From Candidatus Poribacteria bacterium (lineage in GTDB: Bacteria > Poribacteria > WGA-4E > WGA-3G), in NCBI GenBank assembly GCA_022828145.1, contig JAJEJA010000026.1, positions 1-64,000 on the forward strand: a stretch of DNA of 64,000 bases. The letters are read 5' to 3'. Positions 7,946 to 56,628 of the stretch are shown in pieces (positions within the stretch are counted from its first letter, which is position 1; the number at the start of each line of letters is the position of its first letter). The notes below the pieces were generated by a model that was not told where the DNA came from, did no database searches, and saw nothing but the letters and a program-made list of their open reading frames with translations. The translations under genes and the position numbers were made by a program.

Positions 7946-7958
7946 ATAAAACACCCAG

Positions 7959-35165: not shown

Positions 35166-36191
35166 ATGAAGAGAGTTTTTGTTTATCTTATGTTAATAAC
35201 CCTGTTATTCAGTTATAGTTGTCTATTGGTTAGTTTGGTTGGGAGTGTGCAAGCAGCAGAAAATTCCGTTATCTCATTTCTTTCTAACGAGAATGGAAAT
35301 TACGATATATTTCTTATTGATACGGATGGAAACGTTCTACAACGTTATCCCACAGATTCGATGAGAAAGAGTAATCTCACATGTTATCCAAACGGTTACC
35401 TTTTCGCATATTCATCTAATGAACACGGTGATCCTGATATATATAAGATGGATATTAGGAACAATAAACCTATCCAGTTGACACATCATCCTGATAGAGA
35501 TTTATGGCCTTCTTGGTCGCCTAATGGAGAGTGGATTGCTTTTGTGTCTGACCGAGAAGGAACACTAAATATATATAGAATGGACGTGAACGGCTCCAAC
35601 ATAATCAGATTAACTCACCAAGGCATTAACGGAAGACCCGCATGGTCTCCAGATAGTCAGTTGATCGCTTTTGATTCTCAAAGAGAAGGACATCACGCTA
35701 TCTATATCATGAACGCTAATGGCGGACAGTTAAAACAGTTGACAGAAGATTTGCCACTGTGGCCAGGTTGTTCGTGGTCGCCAGATGGTACACAGATTGC
35801 TTATGCTGCAGGGAGATTTGATGAAGAAGGTGCAGATATTTTTACTATGGACGTTGATGGGAACAATATGAAAAAACTTACAAGCTTGGGAAGTGGCTTC
35901 CGTTCTGCTAACGCTGCGTGGTCCCCTGATGGGAAGTGGATCGCTTTTTCAGTTGTAAACGTAGCTGAGTGGCCAAATCCCGCAAACGGTTTTAGACTTA
36001 TTTTCAGCGATAGCACCATATACCTCGTAGATAACAGCGGTAACGGTGACGCTTTACCTCTTGAAAAGACAACGGGACTTTCAAGTAATCATGCACCTGT
36101 TTGGACATCACAAAGTTTTTTTGCAGTAACGCCTGATGAAAGTAAACAGATAATCACATGGGGTAAACTTAGAACATTGGGTTCTGAATAG
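35166..36191 (+). CDS. Secreted TolB-like (PD40) beta-propeller with C-terminal W-G tail
   Basis: 341 residues. A signal peptide (about 1-31, ending VQAAEN) precedes six or so PD40/WD40-like blades with the W-S-P-[DN]-G/S pattern: PSWSPNGEWIAFVSDREG, PAWSPDSQLIAFDSQREG, CSWSPDGTQIAYAAG and AAWSPDGKWIAFS. It is probably periplasmic or surface-exposed and binds other proteins or glycans. The last 12 residues (ITWGKLRTLGSE) follow the tail pattern shared with the proteins at 50816-56628. A good ribosome site (AAGGAG) is present. The next gene starts seven bases downstream. Confidence 0.88.
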   Translation: MKRVFVYLMLITLLFSYSCLLVSLVGSVQAAENSVISFLSNENGNYDIFLIDTDGNVLQRYPTDSMRKSNLTCYPNGYLFAYSSNEHGDPDIYKMDIRNNKPIQLTHHPDRDLWPSWSPNGEWIAFVSDREGTLNIYRMDVNGSNIIRLTHQGINGRPAWSPDSQLIAFDSQREGHHAIYIMNANGGQLKQLTEDLPLWPGCSWSPDGTQIAYAAGRFDEEGADIFTMDVDGNNMKKLTSLGSGFRSANAAWSPDGKWIAFSVVNVAEWPNPANGFRLIFSDSTIYLVDNSGNGDALPLEKTTGLSSNHAPVWTSQSFFAVTPDESKQIITWGKLRTLGSE

Positions 36192-36197
36192 GTTTTC

Positions 36198-37331
36198 ATG
36201 ACTTACTACGAATACTACATCATTTTTTTAGCACTTATCTTCTGTGGATACGCATGTTACACAGATATAAAAACACAGAAGATCCGAAATATATGTTCCT
36301 TCGGACTCCTTTACGCTGGGGTACTGAGCCAATTTATGGCGTGGTTTCTTGGGACAACGACACCACTTTACATCACCGGACTGTTTCTCGGTAGTGGGAT
36401 CGTAGCATTTGCTTTATATTGGTTTGGTATTTTTTCGCCGGGTGATTCCAAGCTCTTCTGGGGACTCTGTTTGATTCTGCCGCCGCCACTATTCAGACTC
36501 TTGAGTGGTTTTATCAGTTTTCCACCGTTGATTCTTACACTTAATATCGTTATCCCTTACACAATAGGGATAGTCGTTTTTCTACTTTTTAAGTTCGTCT
36601 TTATAGGTCATAACCTGCGAATTATCAGTAGCAGTATTATACCGAACCTTAAAAAAGAGATCCTATTAATGCAAATCTTCAACTTATTGCTCTTAGTAGG
36701 TATAGGGTCAACCATTAGCTACCTTGCGGGATTCTTGGCATGGGAAATCAATAGACCTTTACAGATAGGTCTTGTCTTGACAACATTTACATTAGTCCGA
36801 ACATTACTATCCAATATACCTAAAAATACGACATACTATGCAGTCATTGGATTTGCTTGTATCTGGATTTCATTGAAAGTCAGTGCATCAATATCGGGAT
36901 TTATTTACAGTTTTGCTATCTTCTTAGGAATATATTTTTTCATTTTCATCATTGCCAAACAATTAGTTCTTGGATTGGCAATGCTGCTGGTTAAGGATAT
37001 TGATATTGCCAATCTTCAGATCGGTATGATTCCTGCAGAACAGATTGTTCAGACTAAGGATCAGGATGGCAGAATCAGTTATGAAAAGCGACAAGCTACA
37101 TTTTCAAGTGGTATAACAGATAACCTTATTATTACACCGAGTGCAACGGGTCTTAGTAAGGAAACAATAACAGAATTGAAAAAACTGGCGGATCAAGGTG
37201 CATTTACAAAATATGGAAATCAGATTAAGATCCAACCCGATATCTGCTTTGCACCAGTTATCACTGTAGGTGTACTTCTGACTATTCTTTGCCAAGGTCC
37301 GTTTTATTTGCAATTCATTCAACTATTTTAA
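36198..37331 (+). CDS. A24-family prepilin peptidase, stand-alone
   Basis: 377 residues and about nine membrane helices. The two catalytic aspartates are recognisable: Asp23 in YTDIKTQKIRN and Asp83 in SPGDSKLFWG (the G-D motif). The N-terminal Cys-rich methylase half found in PilD is missing, as in TadV/CpaA-type enzymes. It would cleave a type III signal of a pilin or other substrate, but no pilin is visible nearby. It lies seven bases after the propeller gene and ends at the edge of the family B element at 37330. The C-terminal third (after ~260) is unlike other A24 proteins I know. Confidence 0.85.
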   Translation: MTYYEYYIIFLALIFCGYACYTDIKTQKIRNICSFGLLYAGVLSQFMAWFLGTTTPLYITGLFLGSGIVAFALYWFGIFSPGDSKLFWGLCLILPPPLFRLLSGFISFPPLILTLNIVIPYTIGIVVFLLFKFVFIGHNLRIISSSIIPNLKKEILLMQIFNLLLLVGIGSTISYLAGFLAWEINRPLQIGLVLTTFTLVRTLLSNIPKNTTYYAVIGFACIWISLKVSASISGFIYSFAIFLGIYFFIFIIAKQLVLGLAMLLVKDIDIANLQIGMIPAEQIVQTKDQDGRISYEKRQATFSSGITDNLIITPSATGLSKETITELKKLADQGAFTKYGNQIKIQPDICFAPVITVGVLLTILCQGPFYLQFIQLF

Positions 37332-37471
37332 CATCAGTTTGATTAATCATTTCGGTTGCGTTCACTCACACCATTTCGTATCCGAGAGGCGTGAATTGTA
37401 GCACAAACTTTCAGTTTGTGGCACATCTTCGCAAACTGGAAAGTTTGCGCTACATTTATCAAACTCAAGTT
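37330..37471. mobile_element. MITE-like element, family B (second copy)
   Basis: The left terminus AACATCAGTTTGATTA at 37330 and the right terminus TTATCAAACTCAAGTT at 37456-37471 are imperfect inverted repeats matching the element at 2543-2696. The interior holds a gtagcacaaactttcagttt / gcaaactggaaagtttgcgc palindrome. The left end overlaps the last two bases of the peptidase stop codon. Confidence 0.6.
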
Positions 37472-37524
37472 ATTCTAATTTTATTTATAAAAGGAGAGAT
37501 CAATAATTTGATTTTATGTAACTT

Positions 37525-39384
37525 ATGAAACGAACGATATTTATCATGGTCATTTTAACATTTCTTGTTACTTCCCCACCTTTATTCCTGGAATGGTTAG
37601 ACTTTCGAAGGAAGAATCAGATACAGGAAATCAAGCAACAAGCGAGACCAATTTTCGGTGAACCTTATGAAAAGGTGCTTTCCGAACTTAAAGGCAATAA
37701 CCCCCCTTCAGCCATTATCCTATACACAGGTAACACGAAAAGCCATCTTGAACCGTGCGGATGTTACCAAGAACAATCTGGAGGTCTATCAAGACGCGCT
37801 TACGTTATAGAACGAATCCGAGAGTGTGGATATCCTACACTCGTTGTTGATGCAGGGAACATTTTTGATGGGAAAGAAGAAATAGATGCAGAACGATGCA
37901 GAACCAATATTAAAGCATTGGCTGAAATGGATTATTCAGCAATCGCACTGAGTGAAAACGATCTTACATATCATGACACCTATCTTAGGCAACAAAAAGG
38001 GGTTGCAACCTTTCCGTTCTTATCACCTGGTGAAGCACAGAAGGATTTCACGCAGCAGTATGTCACGCAGAAAGCGGGTCAATATACCATCGCCTTTGTT
38101 GTAAGGGAAGCACCTCAACAAGCAGTATCAGAAGCAGATATCATTGTGGCTTTAGGTCATCTTAAAGAACCTGAACATATTGACGTTGTGATTCTACCAG
38201 AAGAAGTCGAAGCAGTGAAATCTGATACGAAAACGGTGTATGTAGGTTCAAAATCAGAAGGTAAAACTTTAGGTGTATTGGCATTTTGGTTGGATGAAAA
38301 TGGAGAGATCGCAAATCATTACACAACACATATTGCGTTGACCGGTGAAGTCGGAGAATCGGAATCAATTCGCCACATGTTGACTGACTTTTACAGAAGC
38401 ATTGCTAATAAACACAACACTTCTGATACTCGGCTTTTTGTTGAACAGATGTTAGAAAAACAGAATAGTGGATATATATCAGCAGAAACTTGTAAGTCGT
38501 GTCACGAACAGGAATATCTTCAATGGTCCGGAACGCGCCATGCTTTTGCTTATCAGACACTTATAAAAAAGGAGCGATACTTTGATCCAAACTGTGTCGT
38601 TTGCCATACCACAGGGTTTGGGTATGAGACTGGGTTCCAGATAGGTGATCAAGACTCAACGCTCAAAGGTGTGCAATGTGAAACATGCCACGGTCCAGGT
38701 AAACAGCACGCAGGCAATCCAAAGAAAAGCAATATCCGTAGTGGTAAAGATACATCACTCTGTTTAGAATGTCATGATCCAAAACATTCGCCAGGTTTTG
38801 CAGAAGTTGTAACATTGCATACAAAGGATGTCAACCACAGTCAAAAACCGATGAACTTAGAAGAACTGTTAGCATCACGAATAGAACGTGTGGGAAGACC
38901 GACGCTGGAGCTGTTTGTCATGAGTTATTGTCCTTTTGCTATCCAAGCAGAAAAGCAGATCATCCCGATTGTCAAGAAGTTCGGTGACAAAATAGACTTC
39001 AAACTTCGGTTTATCGCAGAAGAAAAAGATGAGATATCCTCACACGACATAACCCCCTTTGCCAGTCTACACGGTTACCCAGAAATAGCAGAAAACATCC
39101 GGCAACTGTTAATTGCGCGGGAATATCCAGAACAATCCTTGGATTATCTCTTGTGTCGTGGCAAAAAATTGAATAAGAGCTGGGAAGATTGTGCCAAGAA
39201 ATTCGGTATTGATGTCCATAAAATTCAACGATTGTTTGATACACCTGAAACAGAACAGGCTTTCAGAGAAAACATCAAACGATCAGCAGAATTAGGAATT
39301 AAGGCTTCTCCAACAATCTTAATAGATAACCATCAATTCCCAACGAATCAACTGCTACGTGCCAGTGGAACTCCTTGTGAGTGA
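37525..39384 (+). CDS. Membrane-anchored fusion: phosphoesterase-like, tetraheme cytochrome and thioredoxin-like domains
   Basis: 619 residues. An N-terminal helix (about 4-24) anchors or exports it. Residues ~62-300 resemble the 5'-nucleotidase/SoxB-type metallophosphoesterase start (YTGNTKSHLEPCGCYQEQSG, GGLSRRAYVIERIRE, VVDAGNIF), with a Cys-Gly-Cys at 78-80. Four C-x-x-C-H heme sites follow (CKSCH 323, CVVCH 357, CETCH 385, CLECH 413), like the cytochrome c554 group. The C-terminal part (about 460-619) is thioredoxin/DsbA-like, with MSYCPFAIQAEK (a single Cys where C-x-x-C is usual) and KASPTILIDNHQF (the cis-Pro loop). It suggests electron transfer to a periplasmic thiol or phosphoester substrate. 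Confidence 0.85.
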   Translation: MKRTIFIMVILTFLVTSPPLFLEWLDFRRKNQIQEIKQQARPIFGEPYEKVLSELKGNNPPSAIILYTGNTKSHLEPCGCYQEQSGGLSRRAYVIERIRECGYPTLVVDAGNIFDGKEEIDAERCRTNIKALAEMDYSAIALSENDLTYHDTYLRQQKGVATFPFLSPGEAQKDFTQQYVTQKAGQYTIAFVVREAPQQAVSEADIIVALGHLKEPEHIDVVILPEEVEAVKSDTKTVYVGSKSEGKTLGVLAFWLDENGEIANHYTTHIALTGEVGESESIRHMLTDFYRSIANKHNTSDTRLFVEQMLEKQNSGYISAETCKSCHEQEYLQWSGTRHAFAYQTLIKKERYFDPNCVVCHTTGFGYETGFQIGDQDSTLKGVQCETCHGPGKQHAGNPKKSNIRSGKDTSLCLECHDPKHSPGFAEVVTLHTKDVNHSQKPMNLEELLASRIERVGRPTLELFVMSYCPFAIQAEKQIIPIVKKFGDKIDFKLRFIAEEKDEISSHDITPFASLHGYPEIAENIRQLLIAREYPEQSLDYLLCRGKKLNKSWEDCAKKFGIDVHKIQRLFDTPETEQAFRENIKRSAELGIKASPTILIDNHQFPTNQLLRASGTPCE

Positions 39385-39883
39385 TTTTCACAGAAATATT
39401 TTTCATTTTATGCACCTATTTGGGTAAAAAATATTGTCTTAAGTTATGAAGGGAAAATGTGATCGCATTCCATACTTTTTGGAAATCTAATTGATGATTT
39501 ATTAGAGGAGTTCAATTTGCGTATTTTTCCCGGAATCTATCGTTTTTTGCCCGTTTTGATTGAAATTTTAGTAAGAAGTTCATTTTTCTTTCATTTTATG
39601 TGCCTATCGGGGTATAAAATTGTGTCTTTAAGTATGAAAACAATTTTATGCAGCAATTTGGAAAAATCCGTTTGCCGCATTTTACGTAAGTCCGGTATGT
39701 TATAATTGTTACAAATAAGTGGATGCAGCGAGATTCAGAGGGTATTTTGCTAATTCTTGCATCATTATTTGGTTAACACCCTCTAAATTAATACGCTTTC
39801 ACGCTTCAAGGTGTCTGTGTGGATGGAAAATTCCAAATTACACTTAGCCAGGATGTGAGAAGGTTGACATAGGAGAGAATACA
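39385..39883. other. Non-coding stretch with an imperfect internal duplication
   Basis: About 500 AT-rich bases. Two segments resemble each other: ttttatgcacctatttgggt near 39406 and ttttatgtgcctatcggggt near 39593, each followed by a similar gtctt-aagt-atgaa run. A 62-codon TTG frame here (39517-39705) looks spurious. No hairpin or promoter consensus was identified with confidence. Confidence 0.4.
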
Positions 39884-40246
39884 ATGCAACGAAATGTAGT
39901 TTTTACAAGTCTTTGTGCAATCTTTTTTGTTTGTGCATTGGCAATTCTGTTTTTGATAAAACAAGTGGAAGCACACCCGAATCTTTGGCATATAACGGAG
40001 GTCACTGAAAATTGCTACTTGTTGGGTTATCCCTCCAGAACTTACTGCAGTACTAGGACATATTACGAGACAGATGTAGAATTCTCACTTGATGATCATA
40101 TATTGATTATTGTGCATGGGAGACACTTTTATTTTCACTACCCCGGGCATCAAAATCATGATACAGACTGGATTCTCGATCCACCTCTTCGTAAATTACG
40201 AGTAAAAACTGTTCTTAATAGTTGTAGTGAATGTAGTACGTTTTAA
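39884..40246 (+). CDS. Second small secreted four-cysteine, His-rich protein
   Basis: 120 residues. A signal peptide (hydrophobic 8-25) probably ends after QVEA (residue 30). The mature ~90 residues contain Cys at 44, 55, 114 and 117 and a His-rich stretch HGRHFYFHYPGHQNHDTDW at 78-96 that could bind metal. The family is unknown. The start has an AGGAGAG site ten bases upstream. It is followed by a strong hairpin (40275-40314). Like the protein at 34295, it is a small, exported, disulfide-capable product in the same stretch, but the two show no sequence similarity. Confidence 0.65.
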   Translation: MQRNVVFTSLCAIFFVCALAILFLIKQVEAHPNLWHITEVTENCYLLGYPSRTYCSTRTYYETDVEFSLDDHILIIVHGRHFYFHYPGHQNHDTDWILDPPLRKLRVKTVLNSCSECSTF

Positions 40247-40274
40247 TGGCTTGCTCTCTCAAAACAGAAAAGGA

Positions 40275-40314
40275 CAACACCTGTTTGGCACTTGCTTCTG
40301 TCGGACAGGTGTTG
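40275..40314 (+). terminator. Hairpin after the His-rich secreted protein
   Basis: CAACACCTGT and ACAGGTGTTG form a perfect 10-base stem with a 20-base loop. There is no T-tract, so it is a probable but not textbook terminator. Confidence 0.6.
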
Positions 40315-40344
40315 CTTAACTTGTAATCTAAAGGAGAACTAAAA

Positions 40345-41082
40345 ATGAAAAAACTAATTTTCTTTACTCTCATTATTGTAGTTCTGGGAGCTTTTTACCT
40401 ATACACAGAGATTTACACCCGCGGCATAGTTAATGATCCTATACAGCCGAAAGACTCTATAGAAAAAGTGGAACCTAACACTGTGTCAACAGATCAAGAA
40501 GGACGAGATGTGTTAAAAAAACGAACTTCAACAGAAGCGACAAACACATCAGACTTGCCAGGACAAGAAGTAGCAGACATTGTGGAAAAAGATGATACTG
40601 TTACAGATAATTATGATTGGCTAAATGATGAGAATCCAGGTAAACTTCCACCACAAAAGGACCCGTTCGGAGATCTCATAGCTGAGCAACAAGCGAAAGA
40701 TCGCGGTACGTGGATAGGCGATCCAGAAACGATGGATCCAGATGAACTTCATAGTGCGGAATATAACCAACTCCTTGAAAGGTTTGGGGATATTCCACAG
40801 GTTCATACCTTTATGGAGTATAGTCGAAAGAATACGGGTAATACTCCAATGACATTAGATGAGAGAATTGCTGGATTGGAAGCAATGAATCACTTGTTTC
40901 CATCCGGATCAACCCGCCGCACACTTTTGTATTTTCAGTGGATAAAAACAAAAGGCGGTAGATATGAGGCTATAAATCAAATTCTAACACCCACTGATTT
41001 AAAATATCTTAGAGATTCAGGTATCAAGGTTGATGTAAGCGAGAAAAATAGAAAGGTACGAATTCGTATCTCAACGAGATAG
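40345..41082 (+). CDS. Membrane-anchored or exported protein of unknown function
   Basis: 245 residues. An N-terminal hydrophobic helix (about 3-22, IFFTLIIVVLGAFYLYTEIY) acts as anchor or signal, then a long acidic, probably disordered linker (about 30-130, rich in Asp, Glu, Thr), then a more folded C-terminal part (about 135-245, ELHSAEYNQLLERFGDIPQV, DERIAGLEAMNHLFPSG). No family recognised. AAAGGAGA lies upstream as a good ribosome site. Confidence 0.7.
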   Translation: MKKLIFFTLIIVVLGAFYLYTEIYTRGIVNDPIQPKDSIEKVEPNTVSTDQEGRDVLKKRTSTEATNTSDLPGQEVADIVEKDDTVTDNYDWLNDENPGKLPPQKDPFGDLIAEQQAKDRGTWIGDPETMDPDELHSAEYNQLLERFGDIPQVHTFMEYSRKNTGNTPMTLDERIAGLEAMNHLFPSGSTRRTLLYFQWIKTKGGRYEAINQILTPTDLKYLRDSGIKVDVSEKNRKVRIRISTR

Positions 41083-41150
41083 TTTTATAGAGGATAGATT
41101 TCCCCATAAGAAGTATGAACATGTAAGAGTATGTTGTTTCCTGTAGAAGC

Positions 41151-42908
41151 GTGACTCGTGCAGTTCAATTTAATATGCATCAGTTTCAACAGATTGCAAA
41201 ACGTCATGCTCGTAAAGTCACAAGGTTTTTCTTTGTCTTATGCTTTTTTAGTATTTTATGCGTGCCGCGTCTGCTCTCTTTAGACACACACTGGTCTAGC
41301 GATGAAGCACGATGGCTCCGTCGAAGTGCTAATTTCATGTCTGCTGTTAGTCAAGGTCGGTTTTCAGAAACCCTCATCGCTTACCATCCGGGCGTGATGA
41401 CGAAGTGGATTGCAGGGGTTCGTGTCTTTTTTACCGAGCCGGATGTGAATATCATAAATCTTGTCCAGGCGCGATGGTTAATTGGAATCGTTGTCTGGAT
41501 AGGTATCGGTATTGCATGTCTTTTAGTCTATCGACTTTTCGGGCGTTGGGTGGCTTTTACCAGTTTCGCATGCCTTGCTTACTCACCGCTTTTTTTGGCA
41601 CAGACACGTCGCGTCCACACGGATGCTTTGGCAACTGTTTTTATTTTGCTTGCAGTGTTGCTGTTTCTCAGTTATTGTCAGCAACGTCAGCGTCAAAGTC
41701 TGCTTGTATTTTCAGGAATCGCTTTCGGGTTGGCAGTACTTTCCAAAAGTTACGCTCTGATTCTATTGCTGTGGGTGCCACTCTGTCTCTTTTTGTTTTG
41801 GAATCGCGAGAAACGTACTGGGCAGTTTCTAAAAAATATCGCAGAGGTGCTCTGTTTCTTGAGCTGTACCGTCCTAACGAATGTTGTTTTATGGCCCATT
41901 TTCTGGACACCTCTCATGGTACTGATGGCGTTGTGTCTTTTAGGACTGACTATTACATTGTTAAGAGGGACTTTCAATGAGCGTCCTCCTATTGTGATTA
42001 TAATAGCAGCAAGCATTGGCCTGGGATTACTCTGTTTCAGTATGACACAAATCGTGTGGCGAGTCTTTGAAAGAGTCAATTGGGCAGTCACAACGCCGCA
42101 TGAAGTTGAACACTTCTTTTTAGGTAAAATCGTCAATGATCCTGGTTGGCTTTTTTACTTGTTCGCGTTTACTATCAACAGCACACCATTAATGTTCCCC
42201 TTAACGCTTGTCGGAGTCAGCCAACTTTGGAAAAAGCGGAAACATTCGGAGAGTGATACCCATCGTTTACTGATGGTACTTGCATTTTTTGCTGTTGTCG
42301 TTCTTTTTACAGTGTGTCTCTCTATTACGAGCAAAAAATTCAGTCGTTATTTGCTACCCATTTTTCCTATATTTGAGATACTGTCATCTATCGGTTTTGT
42401 TGAGGGGCTAAAATGGATTTTTACAGCACTGCGTTCACGTTTTGGAACAGCTGAAACCGAGAGATATAAAGTGACACTTACAGGCATCGTATGCATTGGT
42501 TTTTTTCTTATTCAAATTATGCCTGTTTTAACACTTCATCCTTATTATGGCACCTATTATAACCTCTGCTGGCGGGTGACAGACATCACAAAGATTATTA
42601 CTGTAGGTGATGCATCAGGATTAGATATCGCCGCAAAATATCTTAATGACAAATCGGATGCTGAGAAGTTGGTAGTCCAAGTTTCACCGCTTGCCACCGA
42701 AATTGTGCGGAGGTATTTTCGAGGTCATGTATTCAGAGCGAATAGAGAAGTGGAGATGATCCCAGATTACGAGATTGTTTATATCCGAGATTCACAGGTG
42801 GAGAGAGTGCCGCAGACAGGCACATTCAACGGCAAACTTGAACACGTAATTACTCTCAACGGCATTGACTATGTCTGGATTTATAGGGTGAAGCCTAAGG
42901 AGAATTAG
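41151..42908 (+). CDS. GT39-type membrane glycosyltransferase (ArnT/PMT-like), copy 1
   Basis: 585 residues from a GTG start (an ATG at 41175 is an alternative). About 11 membrane helices. The first periplasmic loop LDTHWSSDEARWLRRSA carries the Asp-Glu pair typical of GT39 enzymes that use polyprenyl-phosphate sugars, and YHPGVMTKWIAG follows. QTRRVHTDALAT is the next conserved loop. It would transfer a sugar on the periplasmic face. A paralogue is at 45171. Its stop codon directly precedes the GT4 pseudogene ATG. Confidence 0.85.
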   Translation: MTRAVQFNMHQFQQIAKRHARKVTRFFFVLCFFSILCVPRLLSLDTHWSSDEARWLRRSANFMSAVSQGRFSETLIAYHPGVMTKWIAGVRVFFTEPDVNIINLVQARWLIGIVVWIGIGIACLLVYRLFGRWVAFTSFACLAYSPLFLAQTRRVHTDALATVFILLAVLLFLSYCQQRQRQSLLVFSGIAFGLAVLSKSYALILLLWVPLCLFLFWNREKRTGQFLKNIAEVLCFLSCTVLTNVVLWPIFWTPLMVLMALCLLGLTITLLRGTFNERPPIVIIIAASIGLGLLCFSMTQIVWRVFERVNWAVTTPHEVEHFFLGKIVNDPGWLFYLFAFTINSTPLMFPLTLVGVSQLWKKRKHSESDTHRLLMVLAFFAVVVLFTVCLSITSKKFSRYLLPIFPIFEILSSIGFVEGLKWIFTALRSRFGTAETERYKVTLTGIVCIGFFLIQIMPVLTLHPYYGTYYNLCWRVTDITKIITVGDASGLDIAAKYLNDKSDAEKLVVQVSPLATEIVRRYFRGHVFRANREVEMIPDYEIVYIRDSQVERVPQTGTFNGKLEHVITLNGIDYVWIYRVKPKEN

Positions 42909-47926: not shown

Positions 47927-48092
47927 AAATTACTCTCTTCGGCCAGTGCCAGTTTTCTTTCCTTGTTGATAAGAGGGTTTTCGGTAAAAAATGAGACAGA
48001 AGTCCCTCATACCGCTCTTGTTTCATTGCCTATTCAATATTTTTAAGTAGTATAACAACATTCTAAAAAGTGTCAAGCAAATTACAATATTC

Positions 48093-48306: not shown

Positions 48307-48477
48307 TGAAGAAACATTGTACTGCCATCCCCGTTGCCAATCGGATCAAAAATAACGGGAAGAACAAACAGATCGCAAAAGAATCTTGACTTTTCAGTTT
48401 TAGTGTGGGACGATATATGTATCATCTAATCTATTATGTCAAAAGAGATTTAGATTTTTTCTAATAAGGTAATATAT

Positions 48478-49716
48478 ATGAAAGTTTGTATTCTTACACA
48501 CGGTTATCCCTTATTTCCAACTGATACTACTGCACCATTTATGGAATCAATTGCTGAGACACTTCAGGAACATAATGTAGACGTTACTGTTTTTATGCCA
48601 GACACACCCCAGCTTGCTCGTAACCCAGGGGACCACAGTGTAAACCTCCAGACGTACCGTTACTTTTTCCCACGGCGTTTGCAGCAATTGGGATACGCAA
48701 ACACACTCGTAAACGATTGCAAGATGAAAAAATATGTGTATCTTCTTGCACCTTTCATGTTCTTATTCGGTATTGTCCATCTTATTCGGTTACACCGCAA
48801 GCACAACTTTGATGTAATTCATGCCCACTGGCTTTTACCTAACGGTTTCATCGGAGCAATCGTCTCCAAATGGTACCAGGTACCTCTGGTACTCACAGTA
48901 CACGGTTCTGACCTTTTTGTCGCAAAACTAAATCCATTTTTCAAATGGATGTCAAAGTGGACACTCAAACAAACAGTGAAGGTGACTAGTTCAAGTCCCA
49001 CATTCTTACAGATGGTTGAAGCGTTGGGAGCATCTGAAGAGAAACAGTGTCTGGTAAACCATGGCACAACACCAGCAGAGTTCTCCCCAGCAAGCTCACA
49101 ACAACTAATAGACCTCAGACAGTCACTTTCAATTCCAGAAGACCATCTCATTGTATTCTCCTTAGGGAGAATTGTTTTGAAGAAGGGTTTTGAATATCTA
49201 ATCAAGGCAATCCCTCAGATACAGGATAAGGTGTCAAATGTCACCGTCATCATTGGTGGTGATGGGAGTGATTTGCCACGGCTTAAATTGCTCGCAGAAG
49301 AACAAGGGATTTCAGATAATATCCGGTTCCCTGGAACTATCAGTCGGGCGGACGTGTCCGTCTATTTCCATCTGTGCGATATCTTTACTCTTCCCGCTGT
49401 TTTTGACCCTAAAGGCAATGTGGATGGATGTCCTATCGTCATTATGGAGGCTATGGCTTGTGGAAAACCTGTCGTTGTCACAAATATCTCAGGTATTCCA
49501 CAAGCCGTGTTGCACGGCAAAACAGGTTATTTAGTTGGAGAAAAGGACTCTGACGCACTCGTGACAGCACTTGTATCACTCTTAACAGACCCGGAAAAAC
49601 GAAACAGATTTGGCAGCGCGGGACGGCAAAGACTCTTACACGAATTAACGTGGGAAAAAACGATTGAACAATTTATTAGTCTTTATCCACAAGGGAATGA
49701 GGAAAGTTCCAAATAA
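48478..49716 (+). CDS. GT4-family glycosyltransferase
   Basis: 412 residues with the GT-B layout. The N-domain begins MKVCILTHGYPLFPTDTTAP and includes DVIHAHWLLPNGFIGAI. The C-domain has SLGRIVLKKGFEYLIKAI and the sugar-nucleotide site FDPKGNVDGCPIVIMEAMAC followed by GKPVVVTNISGIPQAV (the E-x7-E type pattern). It acts on the cytoplasmic side. A dead relative is at 42909. It follows the UPF0104 remnant, suggesting that this is the surviving member of a second copy of the cluster. Confidence 0.92.
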   Translation: MKVCILTHGYPLFPTDTTAPFMESIAETLQEHNVDVTVFMPDTPQLARNPGDHSVNLQTYRYFFPRRLQQLGYANTLVNDCKMKKYVYLLAPFMFLFGIVHLIRLHRKHNFDVIHAHWLLPNGFIGAIVSKWYQVPLVLTVHGSDLFVAKLNPFFKWMSKWTLKQTVKVTSSSPTFLQMVEALGASEEKQCLVNHGTTPAEFSPASSQQLIDLRQSLSIPEDHLIVFSLGRIVLKKGFEYLIKAIPQIQDKVSNVTVIIGGDGSDLPRLKLLAEEQGISDNIRFPGTISRADVSVYFHLCDIFTLPAVFDPKGNVDGCPIVIMEAMACGKPVVVTNISGIPQAVLHGKTGYLVGEKDSDALVTALVSLLTDPEKRNRFGSAGRQRLLHELTWEKTIEQFISLYPQGNEESSK

Positions 49717-49787
49717 TGTATAATGTTAAATCAAGAGTCATATTTCCTCGTTTTTCTATAGCTTCTACATACAGTAAGGAGTAATGT

Positions 49788-50063
49788 ATGGCATTACCTA
49801 CATTTTTAGGCATAGGTATCCCAACGTCTGGAACGACGTGGCTCCATGAAATACTCCAGTCTCACCTAGAAGTTTATGTGCCGAAGTATTGTAAAGAGAT
49901 CCGTTTTTTCGATGAAAATTATGACAGGGGTGTTGATTGGTACAAGAAATTCTTCCCATCTGATATGCATGCAAATAAATACCGTGCAATCGGAGAAATA
50001 TCACCATTCTACTTGTATTATGATAATTCTAAGAGACATAAAGGCGAAAAAGACAATAAATGA
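49788..50063 (+). pseudogene. N-terminal remnant of a sulfotransferase
   Basis: About 82 codons (LPTFLGIGIPTSGTTWLHEI ... KYRAIGEISPFYL) match the beginning of the intact sulfotransferase at 47093-47926, then diverge to a stop. The PAPS loop is kept but its conserved Arg is Thr here, and the rest of the enzyme is missing. A decayed duplicate on the opposite strand. From 50064 to 50283 nothing was recognised. Confidence 0.85.
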
Positions 50064-50342
50064 ACTATCAGCAGGCACTTTAGGTCGCCCTGGATCTTTA
50101 GTTTGATTGGTGTTGATAGACTCTTAAAAATCTTTGTAACGTTTAAAGAAAAATGTGATATAATACTTTGCATCAGGATAACACATGGTTAATACTCCCT
50201 TTATTTCCAATTATAGAAAGAGTATAACCTATATCCTGACTAAATTCAATTATGCACACCCCTCACCTAATAAGAGTATCAAAATGAAAAGAGTGTTTCG
50301 TATCACGATTATTCTGATTCCCGTTGCTGTACTTCTTACTGG

Positions 50343-50700
50343 GGGTGTGTAAAGTTTTTGTCCCAAAAGTTTGTCACTATAGAAAAAGGATCGTTGACCC
50401 TTGCTCCAGCGGAGCAATGTGTCTATAGAAAAAGGATTGCCAACGGGTAGCACTCCAGCGGAGTGCTATGTAGGTTCGGTTTCCTAACCAATGCAGGATA
50501 CCAAACGTGTATTCTGCCGGATCTTCGCGAAGATTTTTATGAACGCAATTGGTACAATCCCGGTTCGGTTAGGAAACCGAACCTACCGGACTTTCACAAT
50601 ATGGGTTGATTTTAGCCAGACGCCTCTTATTCCGTGTCCTCCGTGTCCTCCGCGTAATCCGCGATTCTGACAAATAGAGTGACAAAAACTTTACACACCC
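50343..50700. mobile_element. Inverted-repeat element (MITE) with 20-bp perfect termini
   Basis: The termini are GGGTGTGTAAAGTTTTTGTC (50343-50362) and its exact complement (50681-50700). The 358-base element encodes no transposase. It carries family E cores (CTCCAGCGGAG, near 50403 and 50450) and a nested family C pair (50470-50586). No target-site duplication is obvious in the flanks. The termini resemble those of some IS families, but I cannot assign one. Confidence 0.8.
50470..50586. repeat. Nested inverted-repeat pair, family C
   Basis: gtaggttcggtttcctaacc at 50470-50489 is matched by its inverted copy ending at 50586. The ~70-base interior is unique. It lies wholly inside the 358-base element. 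Confidence 0.75.
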
Positions 50701-50815
50701 AATTAGAAGAGGCTTCTGAAAAATTAGAAGAACTTTCAGATGAACTACCTAAGTCAAATGAATAACGCAATGCACTGCCAATATCATATACATATAACAA
50801 AAAAGGAGAAGGACC

Positions 50816-51853
50816 TTGACACATTTTATTAGACACTATAGGAGTTTATTAATTTTATGTCTGTCTTTTGTATATAGTGTTTTCATAGTAAATACTGTCC
50901 CTGCAGAAGAAATAATATATCAACCAAATCAATGGTTACAAGATGGAATATGGATCAGTGATATCAATGGCAGTAAGGAACGCAGACTCTATAATCCACC
51001 ACTTCTCATCAAAGAGCTGTCAATACAAAAAGGTGATCGCTACCTACTTGGTGTTGGTAATGGCACAGATCCAGAAGTCGGTTCTGATGTATATCTTTTT
51101 GACACTAATAATTTGGGAAAAGGTCGAAAAAACTTAACTTATGGAAGATATGGTTTTGTTTTAGATGCAGCTATTTCACGGAACGGCGATGTCGTGTTTT
51201 CAAACTCAATTCTTAATCAACACCCAGATGGTATTTATCTTATTCAACAATACGAGGTACAGGAACCTATACCAAATGCAGAGAAACTTTATAGTGGTCC
51301 CGCGGATAATGTAGATTGGGCTCCTAATGGGAAGGAAGTTGTTTTTTCAAATAGCAACGGGATCTTTCTCCTGGATACAATAACAAGAGAGGTGACTCAA
51401 ATTCTTGATTACGGAACACGACCCGTATTTTCACCTGATGGGAATAGGTTAGCCTTCATTGTTATTACAGATATAAACAATAAAAGGTTAGGTAAAATCG
51501 GTATAATTTCCCTTAATCACCCGCAAGAAGTGTTAATACTTGACAGAGACACGAAGAAAACAAATGCTCTTCCACATTATCTGACATGGATGCCAGATGG
51601 AGATACGATCACTTATGGGTTATGTGAAGTTGTACCCTTTGCACCCGGGGATACGAGGAAAAGATGTGAATACTTAAACTTTGCAGTGTCAGTTTCAGAT
51701 GGTAGCAATCGACCGATTTTTACGAATTTCAAAGGGGGACTCCGCACATGGGAATGGACACGAAAATCGTTTCCAGTTGAACCCATCGCAAAACTTACCA
51801 CGAAATGGAGTCAATTAAAACTAAAAACACAGAACGGAGGTACAAATGAATAG
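50816..51853 (+). CDS. Secreted TolB-like propeller with C-terminal W-tail
   Basis: 345 residues from a TTG with AAGGAGAAGG just upstream. The signal peptide (about 8-28) ends near TVPAEE. PD40-like blades are present but weak (VDWAPNGKEVVFSNSNG, PVFSPDGNRLAFIV, LTWMPDGDTITYG). The tail is LTTKWSQLKLKTQ near the end, with ten further residues after it that overlap the next gene by eight bases. The neighbour at 51846 is a paralogue, and both resemble the propeller at 35166. Confidence 0.8.
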   Translation: MTHFIRHYRSLLILCLSFVYSVFIVNTVPAEEIIYQPNQWLQDGIWISDINGSKERRLYNPPLLIKELSIQKGDRYLLGVGNGTDPEVGSDVYLFDTNNLGKGRKNLTYGRYGFVLDAAISRNGDVVFSNSILNQHPDGIYLIQQYEVQEPIPNAEKLYSGPADNVDWAPNGKEVVFSNSNGIFLLDTITREVTQILDYGTRPVFSPDGNRLAFIVITDINNKRLGKIGIISLNHPQEVLILDRDTKKTNALPHYLTWMPDGDTITYGLCEVVPFAPGDTRKRCEYLNFAVSVSDGSNRPIFTNFKGGLRTWEWTRKSFPVEPIAKLTTKWSQLKLKTQNGGTNE

Positions 51854-52904
51854 CAAATATCCAGCCTACACTTGGTTATGTTTCTTATTGATGAGTCTAT
51901 TTCTTGTATTAACGCCGCTATGTGCTGCCCTAACGGGTGAGATTATATTTGTACACCCAATATCCACAAAGGAAATATGGATCTCCAACGTGGAAGGCAC
52001 TAACGCTCAAAAACTATTTCAAAAAACTCTTACTGATATTCGTCGTATTCAAGATAAATTATCAGTACAAGAAAAAGGAGATTATGTTCTCTTAATAGGA
52101 CCTGGCATAGATGAACACAAAGTGATTCAAAACAATGACATAGTTTTTAGGGGAAATTCAATAGATCTTCATCTGTTCAACAGGAAACATAAATTTAGAA
52201 ATCCAAAAAACTTAACCCTTGGCGCGTTCAAGATGATATTAGATGCTGACATTTCCCAAAATGGAGATGTTGTTTTCTTAGCAAACAAGGAAATATATCA
52301 TATACCACAGGCACAACTTACCAAGGCATCCCCAGAAAGAGTACTTCTTTTCACCTTAGATGACACAACGAGGTATATAGGATATGTAGAATGGTCTCCT
52401 AATGGAAGACACATTGCTTTTTCTTCATCAGGTGGGTTGTTCATATTGGATGTCGCGACACATAATACTTTTCGCATAACGGAACAAGAAGCGTACAACC
52501 CAATGTTCTCACCTAATGGGAAAAAAATTGCATTTAGCACTTATGTAAAAAAGCCTGATGCAGGTGCGTTAGCTACCAAAGCAATTGCAGTTGTCCCAGT
52601 GCAACCTGATGCAAACATTGAAATTGTACATATACAAGAAAACTATAGTTTTGATGTAGATTTTTGGTCTCCTGATGGAAAATATATCGGTTTCTCTTCT
52701 CAACCCAACGTAGAAATCAACAACATTGAAATATTCCAATCGCGCGGCAATTTCATTATTCCAGCAACCGGCGGTGTGCCCGAACCCATTTTGCTATCAA
52801 TGAATAACATCGTACATTCTCTTGATTTTGTCACAGACAGTGCCTATGCTATTGATCCTGAGGATTCTCTGGTAACGACTTGGGGGCAATTGAAGAAGAA
52901 ATAA
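51846..52904 (+). CDS. Secreted TolB-like propeller with C-terminal W-G tail
   Basis: 352 residues. The signal peptide (about 8-30) ends near LCAALTGE. It is similar to 50816-51853 in order: EIWISNVEGTNAQKLFQKT, VEWSPNGRHIAFSSSGG and NPMFSPNGKKIAFST are blade-like. It ends SLVTTWGQLKKK. It overlaps the previous gene by eight bases and is followed by a strong terminator-like hairpin, so the two probably form one transcript. Confidence 0.82.
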   Translation: MNSKYPAYTWLCFLLMSLFLVLTPLCAALTGEIIFVHPISTKEIWISNVEGTNAQKLFQKTLTDIRRIQDKLSVQEKGDYVLLIGPGIDEHKVIQNNDIVFRGNSIDLHLFNRKHKFRNPKNLTLGAFKMILDADISQNGDVVFLANKEIYHIPQAQLTKASPERVLLFTLDDTTRYIGYVEWSPNGRHIAFSSSGGLFILDVATHNTFRITEQEAYNPMFSPNGKKIAFSTYVKKPDAGALATKAIAVVPVQPDANIEIVHIQENYSFDVDFWSPDGKYIGFSSQPNVEINNIEIFQSRGNFIIPATGGVPEPILLSMNNIVHSLDFVTDSAYAIDPEDSLVTTWGQLKKK

Positions 52905-53015
52905 TTGAACTGACATTTAAATTTCATGGAATTTGTCGTTTTTCTGTTTGTTTTGACTAAACTTTTAGAAAAAATTCATTTCATGTAGAAATGAAGTATA
53001 GCAGTTCCTGATAGG

Positions 53016-53055
53016 CAATGGGAAAAGATGTCTATTCTTTTCCCATTGTTTCTTA
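53016..53055 (+). terminator. Intrinsic-terminator-like hairpin after the propeller pair
   Basis: CAATGGGAAAAGA (53016-53028) and TCTTTTCCCATTG (53036-53048) form a perfect 13-base stem with a seven-base loop, followed by TTTCTTAT. The rest of 52905-53194 is AT-rich with no gene seen. Confidence 0.75.
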
Positions 53056-53194
53056 TCTCAAATCTAAACGATTATTGATTTATCCACTTTCAAATGCTAA
53101 TAATCTACTATATAATTTAATAATTAGTCTTTTCTATTCTTATGCGATATTTTGTTGATTTTCATAATATGTCTTAAAAATCAAAGATATTTCA

Positions 53195-54034
53195 ATGACA
53201 GAGGTAATATTAATGAAAGTTAGAACAGAATTTGTTCCCTCTTGGGTGCTGTGTATTTTCAATTTTGCTCTGCACATAAGAAAGTATTTCATAAAAATAG
53301 CAATTTGTGCAGTGTTTTTAAGTGCTTTGACAATCGGACATGGTTATGCCGGAGTTTGGAAAGATTTGTTTGATGAACCAGAACTGATTGGCTGGGAACG
53401 AATTGTTGAAGATAATCCGTGGTTTGCATCTTGGGAATTTGACGGGCTTGTCCCTGGAATCCTTATTGGGACTATTGAAGAAGCGAAACAGGAACAGGTG
53501 ACAGCAGCTGATTTTCTACACTGGAATGCACATCAATTTCAGCTTGCCAAAGTAGCAGTTGTAGGTGAGGAAATACGTTACCTACGTGGCAACAGGAATG
53601 TTTCGGGTGAACTCTGCTTATTCCTTGGTAAGCGGCAACCTGAACCTGAATTCGCAGCAGGTTATATTTTCAGTCCTGAAAAGACAACTAAAATGCAGTT
53701 TACCGCAAATGGTGTTTACAAAATTGGTGAAGTGAAAGTAAATTATGATGACAGGTTCCGCTTGACATCAGGTCATTTAAAAGTTGTTTTTGATGCTGGG
53801 AAGTTTCAACTATACACACAAAAACTTCTAATTACAGAATTCTTTGACTCTGATATCCCTATGATAGATGTTGCCGGTTTGATGGTAGTCCATAAACCTC
53901 CTGGAAGTTGGTTTGATGCAACTATATCAACCTTTTCTATTTCAGGTAATGGTATTCCTAATCACAATTTTCTTGATGTGCAGATGCATGAAACACAGTT
54001 GACTACAACTTGGGGAGCATTGAAACGTTTCTGA
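53195..54034 (+). CDS. Secreted paralogue 1 of the WxDxFDE family, with C-terminal W-G tail
   Basis: 279 residues. A signal peptide (about 28-50, ending HGYAGVW) follows a 25-residue N-region, longer than in paralogue 2. The body shares KDLFDEPELIGWERIVEDNP, SGELCLFLGKRQPEPEFAAG, GYIFSPEKTTKMQF and HLKVVFDAGKFQLYTQ with 54182 and 54987. The pattern (beta-rich, opening with W-E) recalls LamG/concanavalin-A-like folds, but that is inference. It ends QLTTTWGALKRF. A later in-frame ATG at 53213 (MKVRTE) is possible. Confidence 0.78.
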   Translation: MTEVILMKVRTEFVPSWVLCIFNFALHIRKYFIKIAICAVFLSALTIGHGYAGVWKDLFDEPELIGWERIVEDNPWFASWEFDGLVPGILIGTIEEAKQEQVTAADFLHWNAHQFQLAKVAVVGEEIRYLRGNRNVSGELCLFLGKRQPEPEFAAGYIFSPEKTTKMQFTANGVYKIGEVKVNYDDRFRLTSGHLKVVFDAGKFQLYTQKLLITEFFDSDIPMIDVAGLMVVHKPPGSWFDATISTFSISGNGIPNHNFLDVQMHETQLTTTWGALKRF

Positions 54035-54181
54035 ATAAACTTAGCATCTTAGTACTATTCACCGACACAACAAACAGTGTTTCAGGATGGCGTATTGTTC
54101 TTATAATTGCCAGGATTTCATCACGTCAAATAGTCGACAAGACATTAATAATTCACATGACAGCATGGAGATGAATGGGAC

Positions 54182-54922
54182 ATGAGAAAATACATTACAA
54201 TTACGTTGTTTTTAAGTTTAATCTTGTGTGGACTTAGTCACGCCGGAACTTGGAGAGATGAGTTTGAAGAAGCAAAACTCTTTGATTGGGAACGCATTTT
54301 AGAAGATAACCCATGGTCCGCTACATGGGAAACTGAAGCAGGTCTTCTTGTTTCCAGTATTATGAAGCCGAATCATATTCTGGTCAATGCATCTGATTTG
54401 TTACGCTGGAAAGCACGGCAATTTCAACTCCCGAGATTAACAGTGGTGAGTAAGGGAATACAATACGGACGGTTCCAACACAATGTTAGAAGTGAGCTTT
54501 CTTTATTCCTTGGAAAACACAAACCCGCACCTAACTTTATAGAAGGTTATGTTTTCAGTCCAGAAGACACAGAAAAATTGACAATAACAGAGAAAGGTGT
54601 TTACAAAATTGGTAAAGTGAAAGCACAATATCATGATAGGTTTCATGTAACCACAAACCATTTAAAAGTGGTCTTTGATACTGGAAAGTTCAGACTCTTT
54701 ACGCAAGACATTCTATTGACTGAATTCATTGACGATGAAATCGTGTTAATCGATGTTGTCGGATTGATAATCTCTTATAGACCCTCTGGAGATCATTCTA
54801 TGGCATCCATCAATGCTTTTTCTATTTCTGGACACGATATTCCTAACCACAATTCTCTTGATGTACATTTACGAGAGACACATCTTACATCTACTTGGGG
54901 ATCATTAAAAAGTTCTGAGTAA
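54182..54922 (+). CDS. Secreted paralogue 2 of the WxDxFDE family, with C-terminal W-G tail
   Basis: 246 residues. A short signal peptide (residues ~4-21, ending LSHAGTW) begins it. It aligns throughout with 53195-54034: RDEFEEAKLFDWERILEDNP, SELSLFLGKHKPAPNFIEGY, HLKVVFDTGKFRLFTQDILL and GHDIPNHNSLDVHLRETHL. It ends LTSTWGSLKSSE. No catalytic motif is evident, so binding of a surface glycan is more likely than catalysis. A 147-base gap separates it from paralogue 1. Confidence 0.8.
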   Translation: MRKYITITLFLSLILCGLSHAGTWRDEFEEAKLFDWERILEDNPWSATWETEAGLLVSSIMKPNHILVNASDLLRWKARQFQLPRLTVVSKGIQYGRFQHNVRSELSLFLGKHKPAPNFIEGYVFSPEDTEKLTITEKGVYKIGKVKAQYHDRFHVTTNHLKVVFDTGKFRLFTQDILLTEFIDDEIVLIDVVGLIISYRPSGDHSMASINAFSISGHDIPNHNSLDVHLRETHLTSTWGSLKSSE

Positions 54923-54986
54923 TCTTAAAATACGCTGGTTAGAACTATACGCCTTTGATTAATACTACAGGAGGTAAATTAAATTT

Positions 54987-55823
54987 ATGACAAATGAAAC
55001 AATAAAAGACAGACTCCGAATTCAAAAGTTTCTGGATTTTGTTAATTTAAATTCAGAATGTATTAAGGGCATCACTAAATACATGTTCTGTTTATCGCTA
55101 CTGAATATGTATCTCTGTGGATATAGTTTCGCAGGAGTTTGGCAAGATACTTTTGATGATGCAGAACTCAAAGGGTGGGAAAGAATTGCTGAGGGTGATC
55201 CTTGGAACGCCAAATGGGAAGTTGTAGATGGTATCCTATTCTCAGAAATTAAAAAACCTCCTACCAGTCCAAGATGTGAGAAAACCGCAGCGGATTTTCT
55301 GCACTGGAACAAACACCAATTTAAGCTTGACCGATTGGCGGTGACAGGTTCAAGAATTAATTATCCACAAGAAGGACCACATGGTATGGGGGAGCTCTGC
55401 TTATTCATGGGGAAAATGCTCAATATCAATGACTTTGCGGTTGAAGGATACATTTTCAGTCCAGAAGAGACAAGTAAAGTAACGTTTTCGAAAAAGGATG
55501 ATTATAGTAGAGGTAATACAGAAGAATGGTATGGAGATAAATTTCCATTCACTACACGTCACCTAAAAGTTGTTTTTGATTCAGGGCAGTTCCAACTGTT
55601 TACAGACAGAGTTTTGCTAACCGAATTCGTTGACAAACGCTTCACACAGATTGATGTTGTAGGTTTACTCATTACATGCCATTTCGGTAGTGAAACAAGG
55701 TTTGGGGCAAACATCTCAAGTTTTTCGGTTGCTGGAAGTGGTATTCCTAACCACAGTCTTGCTGTTCAGATGCAAAAAACGAAACTTACAGCAATTTGGG
55801 GACAATTGAAAGGTTTTGAGTAA
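54987..55823 (+). CDS. Secreted paralogue 3 of the WxDxFDE family, with C-terminal W-G tail
   Basis: 278 residues. The N-region is long (about 30 residues) before a hydrophobic core YMFCLSLLNMYLCGYSFAG. The body matches paralogues 1 and 2: QDTFDDAELKGWERIAEGDP, GELCLFMGKMLNINDFAVEG, HLKVVFDSGQFQLFTDRVLL. It ends KLTAIWGQLKGFE. GGAGG precedes the start by about ten bases. Confidence 0.8.
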   Translation: MTNETIKDRLRIQKFLDFVNLNSECIKGITKYMFCLSLLNMYLCGYSFAGVWQDTFDDAELKGWERIAEGDPWNAKWEVVDGILFSEIKKPPTSPRCEKTAADFLHWNKHQFKLDRLAVTGSRINYPQEGPHGMGELCLFMGKMLNINDFAVEGYIFSPEETSKVTFSKKDDYSRGNTEEWYGDKFPFTTRHLKVVFDSGQFQLFTDRVLLTEFVDKRFTQIDVVGLLITCHFGSETRFGANISSFSVAGSGIPNHSLAVQMQKTKLTAIWGQLKGFE

Positions 55824-55857
55824 AGTTCTAAAACAACTTGATTGATAATGGTGATAT

Positions 55858-56628
55858 ATGAAGCTGTATCTAAAACTCTTAGTATGGATTACCATATTTT
55901 CTGCCCCTTCAATTTTTTCCTTATCCAGTTTTGGACAGAGTTTTCAGACAGACTTTGATGTCTGGGAAGAAGATAACTGGGAACTATGGGGAGAACATTC
56001 TCTATGGAATGTCGAAAGAGGCAATCTACGGGGAAGGATTCACGTGCCACGCATCACAACTGAATTGTTCCAATTTAAAGGTCTCCCTGGAACATACAAA
56101 AATTATGATATTTCTGTCCACGGGAACATAATTCAGAGACAGGTAAAAAAACCAGGTTCTGGAAACTTCACAATTACCTTAAGAAATCTCGGATCAAAGC
56201 ATTCAAGTATTGGTGTCGCTTTAGGAAAGTTATTTGATTATCCACCTGAAGAACAACCTTTTTTCTATCTATTTTTTACAAATGGAATACGGGCAGAAAG
56301 TATCAACGGCTGGGGCGATTCAGATCCTTTTCCAAAGTGGCATGTGCCCCGGCATCCAGGCACTCTTTGGGAAACACAGGAGTTATCATCCATGGAGCTT
56401 CGTTTTAATCGAGGGCATTTTCAGTGGTTCGCAGATGGTGAAAAACGCGCTGATTTTAAAGATACCGAATTTTCATCAATAGAGATTATCGGATTTGTTT
56501 TGGAAGGAAGTGAACTACATATTGGAAGTGCGTGGGTAGATTATTTTGAGATTTCAGGGTTAGGCCTTGCTGTTTTACCACAATCAAAGTTAGCGACTAT
56601 ATGGGCTCAACTCAGAAAGAGAAAATAG
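55858..56628 (+). CDS. Secreted, diverged fourth member with C-terminal W-A tail
   Basis: 256 residues. The signal peptide (about 4-24) ends near LSSFGQS. The body is distant from paralogues 1-3 but keeps the plan: DFDVWEEDNWELWGEHSLWN, then a strand-rich region ending FEISGLGLAVLPQSKLA. The tail reads TIWAQLRKRK, with Ala at the Gly position. It may be a separate ConA-like family that shares only the tail. It starts 34 bases after paralogue 3. Confidence 0.75.
   Translation: MKLYLKLLVWITIFSAPSIFSLSSFGQSFQTDFDVWEEDNWELWGEHSLWNVERGNLRGRIHVPRITTELFQFKGLPGTYKNYDISVHGNIIQRQVKKPGSGNFTITLRNLGSKHSSIGVALGKLFDYPPEEQPFFYLFFTNGIRAESINGWGDSDPFPKWHVPRHPGTLWETQELSSMELRFNRGHFQWFADGEKRADFKDTEFSSIEIIGFVLEGSELHIGSAWVDYFEISGLGLAVLPQSKLATIWAQLRKRK

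Follow-up and report, generated by a model that had tools for sequence, protein, structure and literature searches.

A tryptophan-anchored C-terminal tail on exported proteins of Poribacteria as a candidate sorting or anchoring signal

Why do seven proteins with signal peptides, all encoded between positions 35166 and 56628 of a 64,000-nucleotide stretch of one Poribacteria contig (hereafter, the window), finish with related short peptides? An initial annotation of the window proposed that this shared tail is a sorting or anchoring signal. The seven open reading frames (ORFs) are present at the coordinates that it gave, and their C-termini read exactly as it quoted. The tail is indeed common to the seven proteins, but a search of the genome that holds the window (5.06 Mb, 123 contigs) and of the phylum shows that the motif is a property of the phylum and is not specific to this locus. 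The best reading is that of a new, non-tripartite C-terminal sorting or anchoring signal. Judging from sequence, we put at roughly 0.7 the probability that the tail is an envelope tag of the phylum Poribacteria which a dedicated protein reads.

Motif, position and distribution of the tail

A profile made from the seven tails matches 101 places in the genome at E≤10, namely the seven themselves and 94 others. Sixty stretches around genome matches, together with the window, contain 801 called ORFs, 102 of which carry the tail near their end; these carriers were chosen by profile match, near-end location and presence of the tryptophan, so that W is found in all of them by construction. The consensus is [AP]-V-[ED]-[PA]-x-[GD]-K-L-[TAS]-T-T-W-[GA]-x-[LI]-K, and across all carriers the W is followed by another 4 to 21 residues. 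Hence, the short core around K-L-T-T-x-W that had been proposed from the seven proteins stands, but the true motif is longer and runs from [AP]-V-[ED]-[PA]. Relative to W, the 102 carriers have K at −5 in 97 cases, G, A or S at +1 in all 102, L or I at +3 in 96 and K or R at +4 in all 102 (97 K, 5 R); V occupies −10 in 91, P or A −8 in 93, L −4 in 79 and T −2 in 78. When anchored on W and with the clusters of carrier bodies equally weighted, the motif holds 40.4 bits over 21 positions, 5.7 of which come from the W that the anchor requires. All 102 tail strings are distinct.

A refined profile (A5) was built from 94 of the 102 tails, omitting four window tails, one other with different spacing and three near-duplicates. 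It finds at least 122 places in the genome at E≤1 (150 of 178 candidates scored) and misses three of the seven window tails at that threshold. At E≤0.01, it matches none of 1,595 reversed proteins and none of the same number of shuffled ones, and each of 20 column-shuffled versions of the profile also returns no match. Chance similarity is ruled out by these empty controls. Compared with PDB sequences, the tail profile gives seven rows, the best of which (E = 0.0012) extends over just 8 profile positions and is not taken as meaningful.

At the DNA level, synonymous codons are freely used at the conserved tail positions, and none of the 36 bases past the stop exceeds 0.31 bits. Since codons vary freely and the downstream DNA is hardly conserved, selection acts on the peptide; the same two observations rule out a DNA repeat element.

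With the refined profile, the motif lies within 15 residues of the C-terminus in 100 of the 102 matching proteins of the own-genome sample, and both internal copies sit immediately upstream of a C-terminal domain of the kind used by the type IX secretion system (T9SS). A degenerate DNA pattern of the motif, which is blind to position, was also run against a contig collection and fetched at least 114 stretches, in which 163 of 163 tails are within 15 residues of the end. A further 17 stretches yielded 17 tail proteins: 15 with the tail no more than 7 residues from the end (one of these already in the first sample), one at 20 residues and one before a T9SS domain. Thus, the motif is not equally frequent inside proteins, being internal in 2 of 102 matches in the own genome and in none of the 163 fetched by pattern.

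Tails are present in all 84 Poribacteria genomes, the genome of the window among them, and in all 21 genera, with 27 to at least 108 matches per genome at E≤0.01; at most 108 candidates were scored in each genome, so that the counts are lower bounds. Among the 80 pattern-fetched stretches listed, 77 are titled Poribacteria, and the other three are titled Pseudomonadota, Planctomycetota and Deltaproteobacteria. The genomes so titled hold 5, 2 and 1 tail matches, respectively. In a control phylum, that of the L140 genome (titled Planctomycetota), 2 of 199 genomes have matches, two in each, and one of them is the L140 genome itself. Tails outside Poribacteria are likely to be mis-binned Poribacteria DNA, as suggested by how few matches the outside genomes hold.

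Export, bodies and homologues of the carriers

Export was scored through a simple hydrophobicity window and not by a trained predictor. By this measure, a strongly hydrophobic N-terminus is present in 96 of the 102 carriers versus 235 of 552 non-carrier ORFs with 150 aa or more in the own-genome sample, and in 153 of 163 carriers versus 203 of 460 other proteins at the pattern-fetched loci, which argues that the carriers are not cytoplasmic. The six exceptions were inspected upstream: two have a signal-peptide-like start before an in-frame TGA, one looks frameshifted, one comes after a transposase-like frame, one is cut by the sampled stretch (its full frame has 1,070 aa) and one is unexplained. 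Two F5/8-type tail proteins, at L034 (8489-9199, minus strand) and L082 (7778-8563, plus strand), share the position of a single in-frame TGA (AKWC-TGA-G), where their relatives at L054 and L193 have Cys; the shared TGA is, on sequence grounds, a candidate selenocysteine site. At L052 (about 7415-8563), a transposase-like frame recognised by eye stands directly before an 82-aa, tail-bearing remnant of the propeller cluster, apparently a gene disrupted by insertion.

Once the tails are removed, the 102 carrier bodies sort by sequence into 21 clusters, of which the largest has 51 members and seven have a single member each. Clustering was by single linkage, which merges some clusters, as two proteins join propeller-like and jelly-roll-family parts. 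The initial annotation spoke of bodies of at least two folds; that the bodies differ is confirmed, but their kinds far exceed two. In the 25 of 69 Pfam families listed for the carriers, LamG_3 is found in 52, PD40 in 7, WD40, the lamin tail domain (LTD), CBM9 and F5/8 type C in 3 each, and NPCBM in 2. The commonest NCBIfam model, TafC (39 of 102 carriers), stops before the tail in three proteins examined singly, and no listed Pfam or NCBIfam model (top 25 families each) covers the tail in most carriers. Could the tail be the mere end of one homologous domain, or a piece of repeated DNA? Half of the carriers do belong to one cluster (51/102) and a similar share has LamG_3. However, the others are spread over 20 further clusters that include propellers, and the free codon usage, the hardly conserved 3′ flank and the empty column-shuffled controls speak against it as well, so that this explanation is hardly credible. 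In particular, a continuous homologous domain that includes the tail is ruled out by the 21 body clusters.

In the sampled stretches, 91 of 230 secreted-like proteins have the tail, a fraction that is inflated by picking the stretches around matches; genome-wide, a count by hand gives very roughly one in seven. A lipobox-like match is seen in 2 of these 91 carriers, both doubtful on inspection, versus 22 of 127 other secreted-like proteins (Fisher P = 3e-4). Relatives of carrier bodies outside the carrier set fill 34 rows in the sample, among them three weak tails missed by the first profile, two upstream halves of TGA-split genes, one probable frameshift and one protein with both tail and T9SS domain; two of the rows, both linked to L091, are odd-looking. 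Some tail-less relatives bear a T9SS domain instead (for example, L063 2348, related to the carrier L056 10338, and L037 2480, related to the carrier L067 9506), and in some a lipobox is matched (as in L068 6997 and L050 9765). A relative of adjoining tail proteins at L074 (3088-3831) stops just short of a tail encoded in a 22-aa frame of its own (G000:C91:3028-3081). As this protein ends right before the tail, the latter was probably lost through a recent frameshift or an assembly error.

Taken together, the C-terminal position, the export-type N-termini, the many bodies and the homologues that alternate between tags reproduce the pattern of a sorting tag of the PEP-CTERM or T9SS kind, as had been supposed from the seven proteins. 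The tail is neither as frequent inside proteins as at their ends, nor a feature of cytoplasmic proteins, nor part of one continuous domain, the three outcomes which the initial annotation named as fatal to its proposal, and the candidacy of the tail as a sorting or anchoring signal is thereby supported.

Known sorting signals and the type IX machinery

Like PEP-CTERM, the substrate signal of exosortase, the tail is a lineage-specific C-terminal suffix on many unrelated signal-peptide proteins, and its suffix pattern resembles that described for PEP-CTERM and GlyGly-CTERM (PMC3237569). Unlike PEP-CTERM, the tail has no transmembrane segment: a 15-residue mean hydropathy of at least 1.6 within the last 30 residues is reached in 1 of 102 carriers, and the other 101 have no span by hydropathy, in agreement with the early remark that a PEP-CTERM-type hydrophobic helix is missing. 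Exosortase (PF09721) is detected in 3 of the 84 Poribacteria genomes, the genome of the window not being among them, and the carriers are thus not PEP-CTERM proteins. The exosortase-like genes, in G003, G015 and G017 (E down to 1.8e-66), possibly reflect horizontal gain or contamination. The sortase signal LPXTG is also a C-terminal motif of exported proteins; it is found in the last 25 residues of none of the 102 carriers, which are hence not LPXTG proteins, and sortase (PF04203) is found in none of the 84 genomes, while 3 of 14 control genomes are positive. GlyGly-CTERM, the signal of rhombosortase, resembles the tail in having been recognised as a common C-terminal region and in occurring in families some of whose members have other sorting signals (PMC3237569). 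Its architecture of motif, span and basic residues is tripartite, whereas that of the tail is not; the tails have neither a span nor a Gly-rich motif and do not qualify as GlyGly-CTERM, rhombosortase itself not having been searched for. A tripartite signal of the sortase or exosortase kind is ruled out by the missing span, the absence of sortase from the phylum set and the rarity of exosortase. Lipoproteins are not a fitting class for the carriers either, as lipobox-like matches are confined to the two doubtful cases.

No description of the tail was found among the papers listed from the open-licence literature on sorting and secretion in Poribacteria and on SprA outside Bacteroidetes, as judged by titles and abstract openings. 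Related sorting and secretion terms are absent from a comparative genomics paper on sponge symbionts (PMC8546597), and another paper (PMC7440613) names Poribacteria in its reference list only.

The T9SS type A domain (TIGR04183, Por_Secre_tail) is, like the tail, C-terminal and carried by exported proteins of unrelated folds in the same genome, with some homologues bearing either. It differs in extending, in the domains read, over some 85-90 residues from the NYPNPFNP motif to the end and in occurring mostly on large proteins, whereas the tail has about 20 residues and occurs mostly on small ones. The carriers have the export-type N-terminus of type A cargo but not its domain, TIGR04183 being absent from the best 25 of 29 families for the 102 carriers. 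If cargo is understood in a wider sense, through the presence of the machinery, then the genome does hold a SprA homologue, PorU and PorV/PorQ-family proteins.

The search for type IX machinery covered SprA, C25/PorU and PorV/PorQ. SprA (TIGR04189) is matched in 83 of 84 Poribacteria genomes at E≤0.001, though in just 1 of 84 above the curated cut-off. The SprA homologue of the window's genome has 2,181 aa and reaches 148.3 bits over five stretches (cut-off 200). The match at G006:C30 (508 bits joined) is far better than that of other genomes, and is perhaps of different origin or a contamination. C25 peptidases are likewise present in 83 of 84 genomes. In the window's genome, a 2,175-aa C25 protein scores 423.8 bits with the PorU model NF033707 (cut-off 420) and a second one 350.5, while three proteins exceed the cut-off of the PorV/PorQ family model and a fourth, which adjoins PorU, reaches 88.4 versus 90. 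Relatives of SprA, PorU and PorV/PorQ are located on G000 contigs C39, C21 and C38 (L208, L255 and L243) and at L039, L070 and L076. They matter in view of a 2014 single-cell genome study which reported T9SS sorting domains in Poribacteria and no structural genes (PMC3909097).

With such machinery at hand, the preferred reading has a special case in which the tail acts as a minimal cargo signal of the T9SS. A shuttle of the PorV family would recognise it, and SprA would export the carrier, which may also be trimmed or attached by a PorU-like sortase. Big cargo would then use the large Ig-like domain and small cargo the tail. Besides the near-universal SprA homologues and C25 peptidases, and the PorU and PorV/PorQ-family proteins above cut-off, protein size is in line with this idea. 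T9SS sorting domains occupy 70 rows in the genome (69 distinct frames), and the median open frame is 274 aa for tail carriers (113 of 122 rows, leaving aside six short frames and three fused with a T9SS domain) versus 842 aa for T9SS-domain carriers (63 of 70 rows, leaving aside six short frames and one duplicate). Furthermore, 3 of the 69 domain frames have a tail directly before the domain, with scores of 31.6, 20.1 and 17.5 bits. When 34 T9SS domains were read upstream, the same three were recovered together with a fourth (L233), in which, by eye, the copy is decayed and its W replaced; two of the three are weak, as if relaxed. It would fit these cases that the tail becomes dispensable once a T9SS domain follows, so that both signals do related work; it would also fit that PorU cuts off the T9SS domain and leaves the tail as the new C-terminus. 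Both readings draw on four cases. The decay argument is thin, since scores as low as those of the internal copies, down to 14.8 bits, also occur among tails at true C-termini. In addition, the tail has nothing of the Ig-like domain, whereas motifs B, D and E are retained in the known short T9SS domains (PMC11969387); proteins with both signals would be redundant; and the co-occurrence of tail and T9SS is uninformative, as both are nearly universal in the phylum. On balance, we consider a minimal T9SS cargo signal possible, though rather unlikely.

Window proteins, tail structure and a possible reader

Three of the seven window proteins, all on the plus strand, had been taken for TolB-like propellers, and PD40/TolB models match them: a TolB/PD40-type propeller at 35166-36191 (tail 36117-36179, AVTPDESKQIITWGKLR) and PD40-type propellers at 50816-51853 (tail 51767-51829, PVEPIAKLTTKWSQLK, the matched part stopping 7 residues short of the end) and 51846-52904 (tail 52842-52901, AIDPEDSLVTTWGQLK), each with a signal peptide. 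The remaining four are related to each other by sequence comparison and form, as stated initially, one paralogous family, here assigned to the jelly-roll family and without a Pfam match above cut-off: paralogue 1 at 53195-54034 (tail 53969-54031, DVQMHETQLTTTWGALK), paralogue 2 at 54182-54922 (tail 54854-54919), paralogue 3 at 54987-55823 (tail 55755-55820, AVQMQKTKLTAIWGQLK) and the diverged paralogue 4 at 55858-56628 (tail 56563-56625, AVLPQSKLATIWAQLR). An AlphaFold2 model of paralogue 2 has a mean pLDDT of 83.9, with strands over residues 22-217, a low-confidence linker and a predicted helix over residues 230-244; concanavalin-like structures, lectins and glucanases, are similar to it in the PDB (TM about 0.5, Foldseek E down to 9e-7).

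Next to the first propeller, at 36198-37331, lies a membrane protein that matches Peptidase_A24 below cut-off and an archaeal A24 C-terminal domain above it. This protein is a neighbour only, as had been said of it, with no sign of a tie to the tail; as a partner of the tail it is rejected, for it adjoins just one of more than 100 tail genes and its match is to the archaeal A24 C-terminal domain. An Rfam scan of the window gave no match, and neither did a tblastn search of plasmids with one window paralogue as query. When viral contigs were scanned with one window paralogue, seven stretches fitted a pattern, and relatives are encoded in none of them.

In AlphaFold2 models of two carrier families, a flexible linker is followed by a helix over the motif (residues 230-244 and 256-269, respectively). 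The hydrophobic moment of the core far exceeds that of shuffled cores at 160 degrees (0.467 versus 0.288) and is also higher at 120 degrees (0.384 versus 0.289). The tail is thus perhaps helical, which is a model prediction with mixed support and not a result. A short predicted helix on a flexible linker would suit a peripheral membrane anchor, that is, a lipid-adhering amphipathic helix, with a Trp at the interface and Lys on its flanks, that needs no dedicated reader, and the spacing of L −4, W 0 and L/I +3 (i, i+4, i+7) with basic residues at both ends is of the same tenor. However, the residues are stricter than lipid binding needs, as seen at +1, −2, −8 and −10, and the moment at the helical 100 degrees is just slightly above that of shuffled cores (0.309 versus 0.285). 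We regard a purely lipid-binding anchor as improbable.

A number of carriers occur in tandem paralogue clusters (53195-56628 in the window; L048, L053 and L072), which makes a shared interaction motif conceivable. The tail could then serve assembly or quality control, with carriers that co-assemble or a periplasmic chaperone or protease that reads it, and localisation would not be its purpose. Against this stand the tails on unrelated clusters, seven of the 21 having a single member, and the homologues that bear known localisation signals instead. The odds of such a role are, in our view, low.

Under the preferred reading of a sorting or anchoring tag, Sec would export the carrier, judging from its N-terminus. 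In the periplasm or outer membrane, a dedicated protein reader would then bind the tail, which has no membrane span and would be a short peptide on a tether, perhaps helical. This reader would deliver the carriers, mostly small proteins of lectin-like or propeller type, to the outer membrane or cell surface, or hold them there. The tail would thereby play the part that falls to a lipobox or a T9SS C-terminal domain in some homologues, and one candidate reader is a PorV-family shuttle of the T9SS found in this genome. The sequence-specific conservation of residues suggests a protein reader and not only lipid; likewise, strict conservation together with the missing span points to recognition of the peptide by a protein. 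Delivery to the outer membrane or surface is suggested by the alternation with lipobox and T9SS domains and by the lectin-like bodies.

Several observations weigh against such a tag. No cognate enzyme or receptor was found among the families searched, and, since tails occur in all 84 genomes, genome presence or absence offers no contrast for finding a reader. A few tail matches are in genomes titled other than Poribacteria, three tail proteins have an internal hydrophobic stretch, and many relatives of the carriers have neither tail, T9SS domain nor lipobox match. Finally, the predicted helix has low confidence, with block means of 54-69 and some stretches under 50, and its moment at 100 degrees, as given above, barely exceeds the shuffled value.

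A more elaborate form of the tag hypothesis, which we hold to be somewhat less than an even bet, is that Poribacteria have a separate route. A non-membrane C-terminal peptide of about 20 residues would be the sole address, read by a dedicated reader, and would place a coat of dozens to more than 100 small proteins, lectin-like ones and propellers, on the outer membrane or cell surface. The route may be linked to a divergent T9SS that has several PorV-like shuttles.

Poribacteria, best known from marine sponges, count among the dominant members of the sponge microbiota (PMC3909097), and the choice of proteins that they bring to the surface is relevant to contact with the host. The tail provides a searchable label for dozens to more than 100 exported proteins per genome, and a concrete target in the search for a new sorting machine. 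If the reading is true, a whole phylum would be marked by a C-terminal sorting signal of neither the tripartite nor the Ig-like-domain type.

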